The translations under genes and the position numbers were made by a program. From Stentor roeselii (Eukaryota > Ciliophora > Heterotrichea > Heterotrichida > Stentoridae), in NCBI GenBank assembly GCA_006503475.1, contig RSEH01000179.1, positions 34,005 to 98,004 on the forward strand: a DNA stretch of 64,000 nucleotides, written 5' to 3'. Positions 7,794 to 49,338 of this stretch are shown here, piece by piece; the first letter of the stretch is position 1; each line of letters opens with the position of its first letter. The notes beneath the pieces were generated by a model that was not told the DNA's origin, did no database searches, and worked only from the letters and a program-made list of their open reading frames with translations.

Positions 7794-8252
7794 TTAGTTT
7801 TTATATTTCGGACTTGCCAAGGCGGTGCCTTTATCAAATTTCACCTTCACAGGCCTGGGCTCTTCAGGTTTTATCCAAAAGTCTCCTGGAGGAGGGTTCA
7901 AAGCAGCCCGGTCAGGGAACAGCTCAGGGTGAAAGCAAAAAGGCTTTAAAAGTCGAGGTCTTTCAGGGATTTTCCAAGGAACCACGTTGATTGTTACTCG
8001 CTTTCGCACCTCGTCGTAACCGTGAAGAACGACTCCTTCGACTGAGGCGTGAACTGTGTGGTCTCGGCCGATGTGCACGTTGTAACCTGGTCGCCATCTT
8101 AAGCCTCTTTGTCGCACAAGGATGTCATTATGACGGACCTCTTCGCCACTGAAAGCTTTGATTCCTAGTCTTTTCCCTGCTGAGTCTTTTTTGTTCTTGG
8201 TGACTGTCGCAGAAGCTTTCGTGGCGAAATGACGACTGAGAAAAGTAAGCAT
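7794..8252 (-). CDS. MRPL27: mitochondrial large ribosomal subunit protein bL27
   Basis: The 152-residue product carries the L27 core: DSAGKRLGIKAF, then a VRQRG segment followed by PGYNVHIGRDHTVHA and the EGVV loop. bL27 sits near the peptidyl-transferase centre of bacterial-type ribosomes. The N-terminus (MLTFLSRHFATKA) is hydrophobic, hydroxylated and basic, as expected of a mitochondrial targeting peptide, so this is a nucleus-encoded mitochondrial ribosomal protein. A C-terminal extension of about 60 proline-rich residues follows the core. It converges with the cyclase gene with 10 bases between the stop codons, and it lies 8 bases downstream of the next minus-strand gene. Confidence 0.9.
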   Translation of the reverse strand: MLTFLSRHFATKASATVTKNKKDSAGKRLGIKAFSGEEVRHNDILVRQRGLRWRPGYNVHIGRDHTVHASVEGVVLHGYDEVRKRVTINVVPWKIPERPRLLKPFCFHPELFPDRAALNPPPGDFWIKPEEPRPVKVKFDKGTALASPKYKN

Positions 8253-8260
8253 TTTTTTTA

Positions 8261-9934
8261 TTACTTAGTAAGGGGACTCTCGATAAGCCTTTGGTATTTT
8301 TCTAAGGTGAAGTTGTCACGAAAGGCTTTTATCTTTCGAGACATTGGAGGCTTTTCTTGCTTGAATCTTCTTACTTTAGTGATTTCTTTGAAGTACTTAC
8401 TGGGGTCGAAAGTTTCTTCACCTTGGAGGACTGTTGAAATGTTTTTTGAGTATTTGTTAGCGACGGCGTCTCTGATGTCCCAAGTGTTTCGAAGACCTGG
8501 GATTATTTCGCCTTGTTCATTGACGAACTCTTTTGCTTTACCTTTGAGTTTGTAAAGGTAACTTTTAAGTCTTTCTTTATGACTTTCTTCAACATTTTCA
8601 ACAGTTTTTTTTAAGTCCTGCGTGATTCGGTTCCTAGAAATAAGAGGCTGGGCTTTTTGGTACTTGTAAACCGCCTGCAAGTTACTTTTAAACTGGGCGG
8701 AGTCACCGTCAGGACTAGTCCCTTTCAACATCAAGGCTCGCTGGTAGTTCGAAATTTTAAGTCTTAAAGAAGCGTCAGTGACTTCCAGTTCTCCATTATT
8801 GAGACCTGCAGCTAAGTTCATTAAAGCCGCCTTGAAAATCGACTTAATAAAAATCTTTTCAAATTCAAAGTAATTCAAATAAGAAGCTGTTGTGATGTCT
8901 CTAAGCATTCTCATCCCTTCATGTTTATTCGGTGCTAAATTCTGCTCAGATAAAAAATCAGCGACTTTGCTGATATGCGACAAGTCCTGAGGTGACTTCA
9001 GCCCCTGCCACCAGGTCCTTAAGAGTTTGACGTGTTCTTCAACAGTGCAGAACTTGAACCGTTGTCGTAATTCCTCATCTTCCCGACCAGAGCGAAAAGG
9101 GTTTAAAGGTTGCAGTGGGGCACTTTCACATCGAGCAGTATTTTTTTCCCGATTTTCATGATTTCCAAGTAATGCTCTTGCATTCAAATCAAGGTACTTA
9201 AGTATATGGTCAGTCTTCGAGTCCTCTTTAAACATATTCTCGAATTCTTCCCTTTGTATCGCGATTTTCGCGATATCCGAGCATTTAAAAATAACACCCA
9301 GGGCCTAAGTAAAGTCTACAGTCTCCACATATCGAGCTTCTGGACACAGGCCGAAAGCGAGCAAAGGAAAAACCAGTTCATCAACAGAGAGTCTTCCTGA
9401 ATCATCTTCATCTAAAGCGAGAAACAACTGTCTTAAGAAATTTTTAAAAGCTTTTGAGCCTTGAACAGCTGGTTCGACTCCTCGCGACCTGACCCACCGT
9501 TCTCTTTCAGTTCGAACCCATTTATGTTGAGACAAAACCGCATCTCTCAAACGCGCTTCAGCTTTTTTCGATTTGAAGGGAGCCAGGTGCTCTTCGATCT
9601 GGTGAATCGGGTCTGGCCTGGGCGCTATGCTTCGAAGTAAACGCATCCCTGCAGACATCCGCTTAAAGCCGTGGTTTAGGCAAGAGTTGTCTTTCAGGGC
9701 TTCTTGTTCTTTATCCGCATGAGCCATTGCACGGAGGATGTTGTGGTCAATGCTTAGGTCTAGTTTGTATTGATTTTTTATCATCTCTATGCTTTCGTTT
9801 GTACTTTTACGACGGTTTGGTTGAAAATTTTCAGTTTCGTCGAAGGACTTTGTGAGAGTTGACTGATCTTTAGGACTTGTTGAATTGAATTCTTTGGATG
9901 GGGAAAGTGGACTGGTGACTTTTTTGGAAAACAT
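8261..9934 (-). CDS. EF-hand protein of unknown function
   Basis: Two open segments join after removing a 15-nt intron (plus coordinates 9305-9319; GTAGACTTTACTTAG on the coding strand), giving 552 residues. The junction reads EARYVET followed by ALGVIFKCSD. One canonical Ca2+-binding EF loop is visible just before the intron (LDEDDSGRLSVDE), and the sequence across the intron probably forms a partner EF-hand. The N-terminus is polar and serine-rich; the C-terminal half is helical and charged with no motif I recognise. It diverges from the delta-COP gene with 38 bases between start codons. A role in ciliary or cortical Ca2+ signalling is possible but not shown. Confidence 0.85.
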
Positions 9935-36096: not shown

Positions 36097-37116
36097 ATGG
36101 ACGCGGCTCTAAACATCAAGCAATTCAAGCAAAAACTACGAGACCCGTCATCATTTAAAATAAAAGACCAGCTTCTTCAGTATTTTCCAAAAAGTTTTCT
36201 AAATTCACTTTCAGAGACTGACTCGATGATAGAGTTGAAAACAAAAATCAGTAATTTTATGATAATGTTTGAAGAAACTCTTCCAAAGTACAACTGTTGG
36301 CGATCTTCTCGATACACTGAAATTGAAGAAGCTTCTGAAGTGGTGGAATTTATGGTAACTAAAGAAAAATACAGGTATTTTTTTCTTTAGTCTTCTTTTT
36401 GAGTCTAATTCTTTAGCGAAAGAACAGGACGAGTCTTTAAGTCGGGCTTATGAGCATCTTGCTTTCATCAGGCCTGAACATCTGGACATTTCTTCAGCGA
36501 ATGTAAAAGAAAACCTGATCCAAGTAGCAGGAAACCGTGATTTTCAATAAGAACTGCGAAACATCAACAACTACACATCTCCAAGAGAAAAGTTGATATG
36601 CATCTCGAACTGCTTCAGAATTATCAACCGTAAGTTTAAATAGAAATCATCGTCAACTTCCATCAAGGCAACGTCATTCATGGCGCTGATGACTCGCTGC
36701 CTTTGTTTATTTTCGTTTTGCTTAAGTCGAAAGTTCCAAGACTTTTCAGCAATTTCTCATTCATCAAGCACTTTCGATATAAACCTCGCAGAGAATATCG
36801 AGACCCTGTTGAGTTTAAATATACCTTCACTAGTCTTAAAATCGCACTTCGGTTCATTAGTGAAATCAAGTCAAATAAACTTCACCTCGGTCCTCATGAG
36901 AACTTTAAGGAACTTGTACAGAAAGCCAAAAAAAAACATGTTGAAACTCAGACGGCCTTTGAAGAGACTCATTTTGGAGAAGTAGAATTGAAAAATTTAG
37001 GAAAAATTAGATATAATGGAGAGATCTCCATTAGTCACTTTTTGTCAAGTCCTGAAGATTTGGAAGTTTTTATTGAGGATTATTGGACATTACTGAAAAT
37101 GAGGAAGGAGGAGTAA
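36097..37116 (+). CDS. VPS9-domain protein (Rab5-type GEF)
   Basis: Four exons (36097-36374, 36391-36536, 36552-36629, 36644-37116) give 324 residues. Spliced, it reads ESLSRAYEHLAFIRPEHLDI, QLRNINNYTSPREKLICISN and then VIHGADDSLPLFIFVLLK with LFSNFSFIKHFR, an unambiguous VPS9 catalytic core that activates Rab5-family GTPases on endosomes. The N-terminal 90 residues are a helical extension, and the C-terminal part is charged. Intron 36537-36551 is 15 nt (GTGATTTTCAATAAG). The first gap (36375-36390) is 16 nt, and the last (36630-36643) is only 14 nt; all three are required to keep the VPS9 frame. Confidence 0.9.
36630..36643 (+). other. candidate 14-nt intron
   Basis: GTAAGTTTAAATAG must be removed as exactly 14 bases to join SNCFRIIN to IIVNFHQGNVIHGADD in the VPS9 domain. 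A 15-base removal shifts the frame. The A six bases from the 3' end matches the conserved A of the 15-nt introns. Confidence 0.65.
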
Positions 37117-42190: not shown

Positions 42191-43114
42191 TTAAGATTGA
42201 GGATTTTTTCGCTTTTGTAGCACATCTTGGAAGGTAGGGTATTTATGAAACCTTGAAATTACTGCAAAAGTGATGCTCCATATCAGGCTAAGGGCTGTTA
42301 TTACAAAAAAGGTCCACCCAAGGACACTATTTTTCCCTCCAAGTCGATTATTTGTAGAGATTTTAATGAATTTGTCAGGGTTGTACCCAAGGATGTTTTC
42401 ATCTTCATCTATTGTAAAGGCTAAAGTTCCTTTTTTGACATCATCGTTTTTTATCCTGCCGTATAATTTTTTAAGCCTGTTAGTTGGAGAGTTTCTCATC
42501 CAGACAATGAAGTGGTCATCAGTGATGTCAAGATAAGAGTCATCCTGTTGCTGGTATTTCTTGTCATCATCAGTACTCCAAGTGATGTCATCCTCATCGA
42601 TTTCAATACTTTTTTCATCTAGTTGCGCTGTAATCGTTGTGTTAACATAACTCGCAGGCATCAATCCACAAGGCAAGATTTTATTCCCATCAAAAACTTT
42701 GATTTTTCCTTCTAAATTCCCTTCTAAATCACTTTTTTTATACAAAGGTGAACAGTCAGTTGAAAGACTGCTGCTGTCCTCATTAGCGAGCTGCTCCTTG
42801 CTTTTCGACTTTAAATAAATCCGATGATTTTGGAAGTAGTTTTCATACTCCAGATAAACAAAAAGGTCTCCCTTGATATTATCAACATCTTCACTATCCA
42901 ACTTAAATTCCACTCTTCCATCATCACCGATTTCTTCAGTTTTTTCAAAAATCTCGAAACTATGAGAAAGAATCACAGAAGTCAAAACAAGTCCAAACAC
43001 AAAAACACAGAAGAAAAAAATAGCTGCGCATTTTGGTTCAGGACTGCAAATCAAAGTACTAAAATCAAGTTGTCTCCAGCCAGACTTTGGCCGTCGCTTG
43101 TTTTCCTTTGCCAT
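42191..43114 (-). CDS. CDC50: CDC50/LEM3 family protein (P4-ATPase accessory subunit)
   Basis: The 307-residue product has two membrane helices (about 27-50 and 265-290) flanking a large lumenal/extracellular domain. Family motifs are FQNHRIYLKSKSKEQL, ILPCGLMPASYVNTT, FIVWMRNSPTNRLKKLYGRI and NRLGGKNSVLGWTFFV. CDC50 proteins bind P4-ATPase flippases and are needed for their ER exit and, in yeast and Toxoplasma, their activity. A guanylyl cyclase/P4-ATPase fusion lies about 35 kb upstream in this window, and CDC50 is known to partner the equivalent cyclase in Toxoplasma, so they may work together; the linkage may be coincidental. Confidence 0.92.
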   Translation of the reverse strand: MAKENKRRPKSGWRQLDFSTLICSPEPKCAAIFFFCVFVFGLVLTSVILSHSFEIFEKTEEIGDDGRVEFKLDSEDVDNIKGDLFVYLEYENYFQNHRIYLKSKSKEQLANEDSSSLSTDCSPLYKKSDLEGNLEGKIKVFDGNKILPCGLMPASYVNTTITAQLDEKSIEIDEDDITWSTDDDKKYQQQDDSYLDITDDHFIVWMRNSPTNRLKKLYGRIKNDDVKKGTLAFTIDEDENILGYNPDKFIKISTNNRLGGKNSVLGWTFFVITALSLIWSITFAVISRFHKYPTFQDVLQKRKNPQS

Positions 43115-48463: not shown

Positions 48464-49338
48464 CTATGAAATAAAATTTGTTAAATCATTTGACATCTGC
48501 GCTTTAAACAGCGTTTCTCCTACTTTAAAATTCATCCCATCAAAAATTTCAAAAAAGTTATCAGCAAAAAGCCATGTTCCATTAGTGCTGGCTTTTTCTC
48601 CATCACCATCTGAGATTTTCCACTGTTTATCAAAGAAAAACTGGCAGTGGTACCTTGAAAGACTTGTATCTTCAAAGCGTATTTGGCAGTCAGACATTCT
48701 TCCAATTTTAACAGGAGAGTCTTCCGGTTCGAAGCTTCTGAATAATCCTTACTTCTTGAAATCCGCTTTGGGGCCTTCAATAAACCTAAGAATCAATTGA
48801 TTGTCTTGAAGACTGACGATAAGATGCGAGTCTCCAAAAGAAATGATGTAAGAATTAAAGATCTTTATCGGTCTGTCGATTTTAATGAAAGTCCCGAGTC
48901 CTTCGCCCATATCTTTAATGAAATAGCTTCCAGTTTCTATTTAACTTCACCTTTGTTGAAGTTGATCATAAAGTGTCTCTTGCCAATTCCTTTTTCATTT
49001 TCAGGTAAAATTAAATCGTTAACAATTGACCGTCCTTGTTTTTCAAGACTTCCTGCATAGACGCATCCATCTTTGACAGTCCGTTTGGAGAATTTCAAGC
49101 CGTGAGGAGATATTTCAAATTCAGTTCCGACGACCATGTGAACAGTGTCGATGACGACGAGGGTCAGTTTGAGGACTTCAATGTTTGTGATGTTTATATT
49201 CTTTTGAAACATGCTGTTGTCGTCTTTTTCCTTGCGTTTTAAGTCTTTCATTGACTTTTCGTTGAACTTGGATTCTTCGTTTTGGTCAAACAAACAGCAC
49301 TACTTAAAAAATACACAAAATCTTCTTACTTTAAACAT
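48464..49338 (-). CDS. tandem FHA-domain protein
   Basis: Four exons in reading order (49315-49338, 48951-49299, 48753-48936, 48464-48737) give 276 residues; exon lengths sum to a multiple of three. Introns are 15 nt (49300-49314, GTATTTTTTAAGTAG; 48738-48752) and 14 nt (48937-48950). The first exon encodes just eight residues; spliced, the N-terminus is MFKVRRFCCCLFDQNE, a three-Cys cluster after basic residues that could be palmitoylated. Two FHA-like folds follow, one with FIKDMGEGLGTFIKI and one with KIGRMSDCQIRFEDTSLSRY plus STNGTWLF. The second keeps the phospho-threonine-binding Arg and Ser of FHA domains, so it could bind pThr peptides. Confidence 0.85.
48937..48950 (-). other. candidate 14-nt intron (second case)
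   Basis: On the coding strand GTGAAGTTAAATAG must be removed as 14 bases to join FMINFNK to ETGSYFIKDMGEGLGT in the first FHA domain. It shares the last eight bases, TTAAATAG, with the candidate 14-nt intron at 36630-36643. Confidence 0.65.

Follow-up and report, generated by a model that had tools for sequence, protein, structure and literature searches.

Two genes with candidate 14-nt introns

The window, by which we mean the whole 64,000-nt stretch of DNA analysed here (C94:34005-98004 of a 44.4-Mb assembly in 522 contigs), contains two genes whose reading frames point to introns of only 14 nt. One encodes a protein with two FHA domains, the other a protein with a VPS9 domain:

48464..49251, minus strand: double-FHA gene, host of a very probable 14-nt intron (gene model; the spliced protein starts at the ATG at 49212)
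48937..48950, minus strand: very probable 14-nt intron GTGAAGTTAAATAG, phase 1 (AAA G^AA), branch-like A at position 9 (-6), frame test delta 6.2
48738..48752, minus strand: 15-nt intron GTAAGGATTATTCAG of the same FHA gene (spliced gene model; paralogs)
36097..37116, plus strand: VPS9-domain gene with introns of 16, 15 and 14 nt (gene model; Pfam VPS9, E 1.2e-22)
36375..36390, plus strand: 16-nt intron GTATTTTTTTCTTTAG of the VPS9 gene, without A at the usual branch position
36537..36551, plus strand: 15-nt intron GTGATTTTCAATAAG of the VPS9 gene (gene model)
36630..36643, plus strand: probable 14-nt intron GTAAGTTTAAATAG of the VPS9 gene, the second in the window, phase 1, branch-like A at position 9

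When the FHA gene is read unspliced, the incoming frame ends in ...NFNKGEVK* and the motif FIKDMGEGLGT lies in another frame. Cutting the 14 bases of GTGAAGTTAAATAG and the 15-nt intron at 48752..48738 yields one double-FHA protein of 239 aa, in which Pfam recognizes FHA in two stretches (E 3.3e-18). The preliminary description had proposed that 14 bases at 48937-48950 must be cut to keep this motif, and it was right: the bases are confirmed on the minus strand, the cut joins the two frames, and the paralogs align. The sole alternative GT..AG pair at this site (8-44 nt, overlapping and with the same frame effect) spans 38 nt, and its removal would take out conserved residues that follow the junction.

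At the 14-nt site of the VPS9 gene the single alternative GT..AG pair (8-44 nt, same frame effect) is likewise 38 nt long. The 14-nt junction is free of gaps when the spliced VPS9 protein is aligned with Arabidopsis VPS9a (PDB 2efc; E 2.1e-26), and a gap of two residues follows about five residues past it. The 16-nt intron of this gene, GTATTTTTTTCTTTAG, has no A from position 3 to the final AG, yet frame and homology demand that it be cut.

Genome setting and the standard 15-nt introns

A purpose-written, two-strand gene-finding model was run on 283,487 bp, comprising the window and loci L009-L048; L001-L008 were excluded from this sample because they overlap with L009-L015. The model returned 180 gene models spanning 215,949 bp. 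Complete gene models stop at TAA (87), TAG (48) or TGA (16), and TGG was counted 555 times. UGA looks like a stop here, and the genome like that of a heterotrich-like ciliate with the standard genetic code. No telomere repeat was recognised at two contig ends; GTAAACTAATCGATACTTAG and near copies of it recur near the ends of contigs, for example at C20:252376 of 252902, C91:119 and C21:144320 of 145378, and may represent a repeat located there.

Intron calls in which a second AG sits 3 bases away were merged before 15-nt introns were counted. After merging, introns of 15 nt make up most introns, with 45 in the 283-kb sample; 35 of these start with GTAA, 42 have a pyrimidine at position 9 and 42 an A at position 10. 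An apparent 12-nt class (GTAANNNNTAAG, five calls) was rejected, as each call has another AG 3 bases on and all five can be read as 15-nt introns. Three of four 18-nt calls were re-read as 15 nt in the same way, and the fourth (L044) was set aside.

Reading frames at candidate sites

The frame test uses 200 bases on each side of a site to judge if a 14-nt cut is required by open frames and codon usage; its thresholds were fixed after a first batch had been seen. The main set of 40 GTAANNNTANNTAG sites consists of 39 sites in contig order, with separately sampled sites left out, and one from contig C69; sites with TTAAATAG, the last eight bases of both 14-nt introns in the window, were sampled separately and are absent from this set by construction. 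A 14-nt cut is required at 12 of these 40 sites. Among control spacings the test is passed by 0/20 sites at 13 nt, 2/20 at 17 nt and 0/10 at 20 nt, so that 12/40 stands against 2/50 (p=0.0009); adding three left-out sites that do not pass (L064, one in L012 and one in L016) gives 12/43 (p=0.0025).

Sites outside this set were tested as well. Five of 20 hand-picked sites pass (15 of the form GTRAR..TTAAATAG and five others), as do four of the 21 GT(N)4TTAAATAG sites from L009-L028, which were used in the order of the list. Within the latter group, sites starting with GTRA or GTAG pass in 4/6 cases and all others in 0/15 (p=0.0025), a grouping to which GTAG was joined after one GTAG site had been seen to pass; for GTRA alone the figures are 3/5 and 1/16 (p=0.028). 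Altogether, the supported 14-nt cases number 23, including both in the window. Their GT...AG ends and the link of passing sites with a GTAA-like 5' splice site agree with tiny introns of the heterotrich type, and they occur in all three phases (11, 8 and 4 cases).

GT..AG segments of every length from 8 to 25 nt were scanned in a sample enriched in TTAAATAG sites through the choice of regions. At each length 9-16 segments passed, including 15 at 14 nt, except at 15 nt, where 55 did. With GTRA and an A at -6 required in addition, 6 passes were found at 14 nt, 36 at 15 nt and 0-3 elsewhere. It is therefore only under these added requirements that 14 nt stands out. Two calls without an A at -6, GTGAGATAGAAGAG and GTGAAGCTTTGGAG, were regarded as noise.

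The frame test also yields false positives, namely two of the 20 controls at 17 nt and a site at 8264-8277 of the window. At the latter, the 14-nt candidate GTCCCCTTACTAAG passes the test, but it was rejected because the cut would fuse the end of a gene with a second, separate gene downstream that has an ATG of its own. In this region (8230-8310, minus strand) two genes on the same strand lie a few bases apart, a TAATAA stop being followed by an ATG; the product of the downstream gene resembles mitochondrial ribosomal protein L27.

Pfam was run on the spliced products of 20 of the 23 supported cases (L058, L101 and L028 were left out). In eight of the 20, a Pfam stretch with E < 1e-5 runs across the junction: L060 (Ank), L082 (60KD_IMP), L088 (MFS_1), L102 (Mem_trans), L078 (CDC50), L091 (Kelch), L027 (ABC_membrane) and the VPS9 gene. 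Six of these matches (Ank, MFS_1, Mem_trans, CDC50, ABC_membrane and VPS9) lie above the curated cutoff, whereas 60KD_IMP and the junction-spanning Kelch model lie below it. Not counted among the eight are L071 and L081, whose junction-spanning stretches are weak and under the cutoff (E 8e-5 and 0.0047). In L070 and L010 the Pfam match misses the junction, and in the FHA protein the printed stretch is the second domain; seven of the 20 products gave no Pfam match.

Paralogs with 14 or 15 nt at one intron position

The strongest evidence for the putative 14-nt introns is provided by sets of paralogs that carry 14 or 15 nt at one and the same intron position. The FHA family is large, with 111 FHA matches genome-wide. 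Twenty family loci were fetched, 15 of which are matched by the spliced protein in tblastn (L045 over just 42 residues), and nine paralogs align over nearly the full length with 41-60% identity (L034, L029, L030, L031, L033, L037, L048, L047 and L035). L029 has a 15-nt intron, GTAATCAATAAAAAG, at the position and in the phase (AAA G^AA) of the FHA 14-nt intron, and the intron is absent at this site from L034, L030 and L031. These four paralogs all carry 15-nt introns at the place that matches GTAAGGATTATTCAG of the FHA gene; they encode two FHA domains, with a 15-nt intron ahead of the second.

Two further families show the same arrangement. The CDC50 gene L078 contains the 14-nt GTAAAGTTAAGTAG, and its paralogs L162, L163 and L164 contain 15-nt GTAAAACATAATCAG, GTAACCTTTAATAAG and GTAAAATTTAAATAG, respectively, at the same position and phase; L165 is intronless there. 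Likewise, the 14-nt GTAAGCGTAAATAG of the Mem_trans gene L102 corresponds in position and phase to the 15-nt GTAATACTCAAAAAG of L161, and L166 has no insert at this site. These paralogs are 4 of the 14 other CDC50 matches listed and 2 of the 4 other Mem_trans matches listed, and were picked partly for a stop inside the match. The CDC50 family is expanded (16 matches listed genome-wide, two of which are the query gene itself), and one match lies within the window at about 42317-42679 on the minus strand (C94:76321-76683).

Genome-wide counts and the size of the class

Counts of the intron motif across the genome are 255 at a spacing of 13 nt, 264 at 14 nt, 1597 at 15 nt, 188 at 16 nt, 220 at 17 nt and 263 at 20 nt. 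At 14 nt the raw motif count does not clearly exceed those at the four control spacings (264 vs 188-263), which indicates that the class is small; nor is there an excess at 16 nt. A genome-wide search for the bare motif GT(N)4TTAAATAG brought no enrichment (152 matches vs 278 for the reversed control). The case for putative 14-nt introns rests on reading frame and homology; the motif count alone is insufficient. Applying the 12/40 pass rate to the 264 sites gives roughly 80 strict-consensus introns, or about 5-6% of the 15-nt introns (1597 minus a mean control of ~231), both figures with an uncertainty of at least twofold. Given that none of the 20 sites at 13 nt passed the frame test, 14 nt may be the floor in this genome.

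The 3' end and the branch region

Sharing of TTAAATAG by the two window introns had been taken as a sign that the 14-nt class possesses a 3' signal of its own, and this idea is not supported. In twelve other 14-nt introns the last bases are TAAGTAG, TAATTAG or TATTTAG, or TAAATAG preceded by different bases; since TTAAATAG sites were excluded from that set by construction, all that follows from the twelve ends is that a 14-nt intron can do without the eight bases. Conversely, the 15-nt intron GTAAAATTTAAATAG of the CDC50 paralog L164 ends in TTAAATAG, as do 12 of roughly 100 sites listed with 15-nt spacing, which are sites rather than proven introns.

The 3' half is alike in 14- and 15-nt introns: usually a pyrimidine, then an A at -6, then five bases ending in AG. 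Both 14-nt introns of the window have a branch-like A followed by this five-base tail, and the A falls at position 9 of 14 rather than at position 10 as in the 15-nt introns. By this comparison, the base that the putative 14-nt introns lack lies between the 5' splice site and the branch-like A. Because TA was required at the branch place in our pattern searches, conservation of the A is to some extent a product of the search; this does not apply to the two window cases. An A directly follows the branch-like A in 11/12 passing 14-mers and in 14/28 non-passing ones (p=0.015); a preference of 14-nt introns for this base is suggestive only.

Alternative explanations

The 14-nt segments could be 15-nt introns that lost one base in the assembly. 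A loss of this kind would look identical, and paralogs do carry 15 nt at the sites in question. Errors in the exons, however, are too rare. A first run of the gene-finding model found 3 exon frameshifts in 215,949 bp, none of them in the window, a number for which 31 odd-length intron calls may hide some more. With introns limited to 14-16 nt there are 4 in 213,101 bp (one in the window), and the laxest cost tried still gives just 10 in 213,350 bp. To turn ~5% of introns into 14-nt forms by error, a deletion rate of ~3.7e-3 per base would be needed, which is ~80-200 times the exon rate. Errors should also produce 13- and 16-nt forms, but none of the 20 sites at 13 nt passes the frame test, and no other spacing among the six counted has as few matches as 16 nt. 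The preliminary description had argued against independent sequencing errors, and we agree that they are a poor explanation; assembly error appears very unlikely to account for the class.

Alternatively, the ribosome might shift frame at these sites in unspliced RNA. In Euplotes, programmed frameshifting occurs at an in-frame AAA-TAR stop and shifts the frame by +1, and in both window cases the incoming frame does meet AAA TAG. However, the shift needed here is -1/+2, and the Euplotes combination of in-frame AAA-TAR with a +1 shift is not found. Moreover, 11 of the 23 supported cases have no stop in the incoming frame (seven codons shown), and the occurrence of all three phases fits poorly with a fixed stop context. 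Frameshifting would also leave about five extra residues in the protein, which are missing from the intronless paralogs and from the VPS9 alignment. We regard this explanation as highly improbable.

Removal of the segments at the DNA level, as residual eliminated sequence, is hardly credible: macronuclear development of ciliates does involve DNA removal, but the GT...AG ends, the branch-like A and the link to the 5' splice-site consensus match the 15-nt introns of this genome, and the positions are exactly homologous to 15-nt introns of paralogs.

Discussion

Our analysis argues that GTGAAGTTAAATAG is very probably a genuine 14-nt GT-AG spliceosomal intron and belongs to a minor class that is spread across a genome whose standard intron has 15 nt. 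The existence of such a class, which the preliminary description had suggested from two genes, is borne out at the level of sequence by the frame test, by homology across junctions and by the 15-nt introns of paralogs; removal of the 14 bases from the RNA would then occur by splicing. We consider it quite likely that the spliceosomal floor is 14 nt rather than 15, that a few percent of introns here have a distance of 9 nt from the 5' splice site to the branch A and replace the minor class of 16 nt known from Stentor, and that introns of paralogs drift between 14 and 15 nt at fixed positions.

The 14-nt introns probably derive from 15-nt introns through loss of a base from the stretch that separates the 5' splice site from the branch A, with 15 to 14 nt as the presumed direction of change. 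If the A at -6, whose five-base tail is kept in both lengths, is indeed the branch, the loop of the lariat would measure 9 rather than 10 nt. Splicing itself is presumably of the ordinary U2 type, with 9 instead of 10 bases in the loop from donor to branch.

An intron of 14 nt narrows what the active site of the spliceosome must accommodate, namely a donor-to-branch loop of nine bases, and paralogs that differ by one base can reveal, as a natural experiment, which of the spacings tolerates shortening. There is also a practical consequence for annotation: gene finders limited to introns of 15 and 16 nt would call genes with 14-nt introns broken.

The closest comparison is Stentor coeruleus, in which 92.81% of the annotated introns are reported to have 15 nt and 7.19% 16 nt (PMC9505925). 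As in that species, introns here have GT-AG ends, are AT-rich and occur with the standard code, and they share a near-invariant A at -6, which corresponds to position 10 of 15 and position 11 of 16 (PMC9505925). Unlike in S. coeruleus, where the minor class has 16 nt (PMC9505925), the minor class here has 14 nt by frame and homology, which is outside the lengths of 15 or 16 nt expected of heterotrich-type introns, and 16-nt spacing shows no excess in the counts. Blepharisma stoltei has similarly tiny introns, mostly of 15 and 16 bp, in a compact genome of 41 Mbp with 66% AT (PMC9942806), and the main-text passages on them make no mention of 14-nt introns. It reads UGA as tryptophan (PMC9942806), whereas UGA behaves as a stop here, and the present genome therefore does not match Blepharisma.

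Extremely short introns within a narrow range are also described for mikrocytids (16-17 nt) and chlorarachniophyte nucleomorphs (18-21 nt), which are longer than those found here and belong to unrelated lineages (PMC10245619). The shortest known intron is given as 15 nt (PMC9505925; PMC12862383; PMC12316389; PMC10245619; for heterotrichs, PMC11441545). Among the titles and abstract openings listed from the open-licence literature, none reported a natural 14-nt spliceosomal intron; the phrase "14-nt intron" occurs in the text of one article (PMC13134632), and another has predicted Arabidopsis introns under 10 bp as its subject (PMC6161759). The 14-nt introns described here thus appear to represent a new length among the tiny introns of the heterotrich type, one base below the published minimum.
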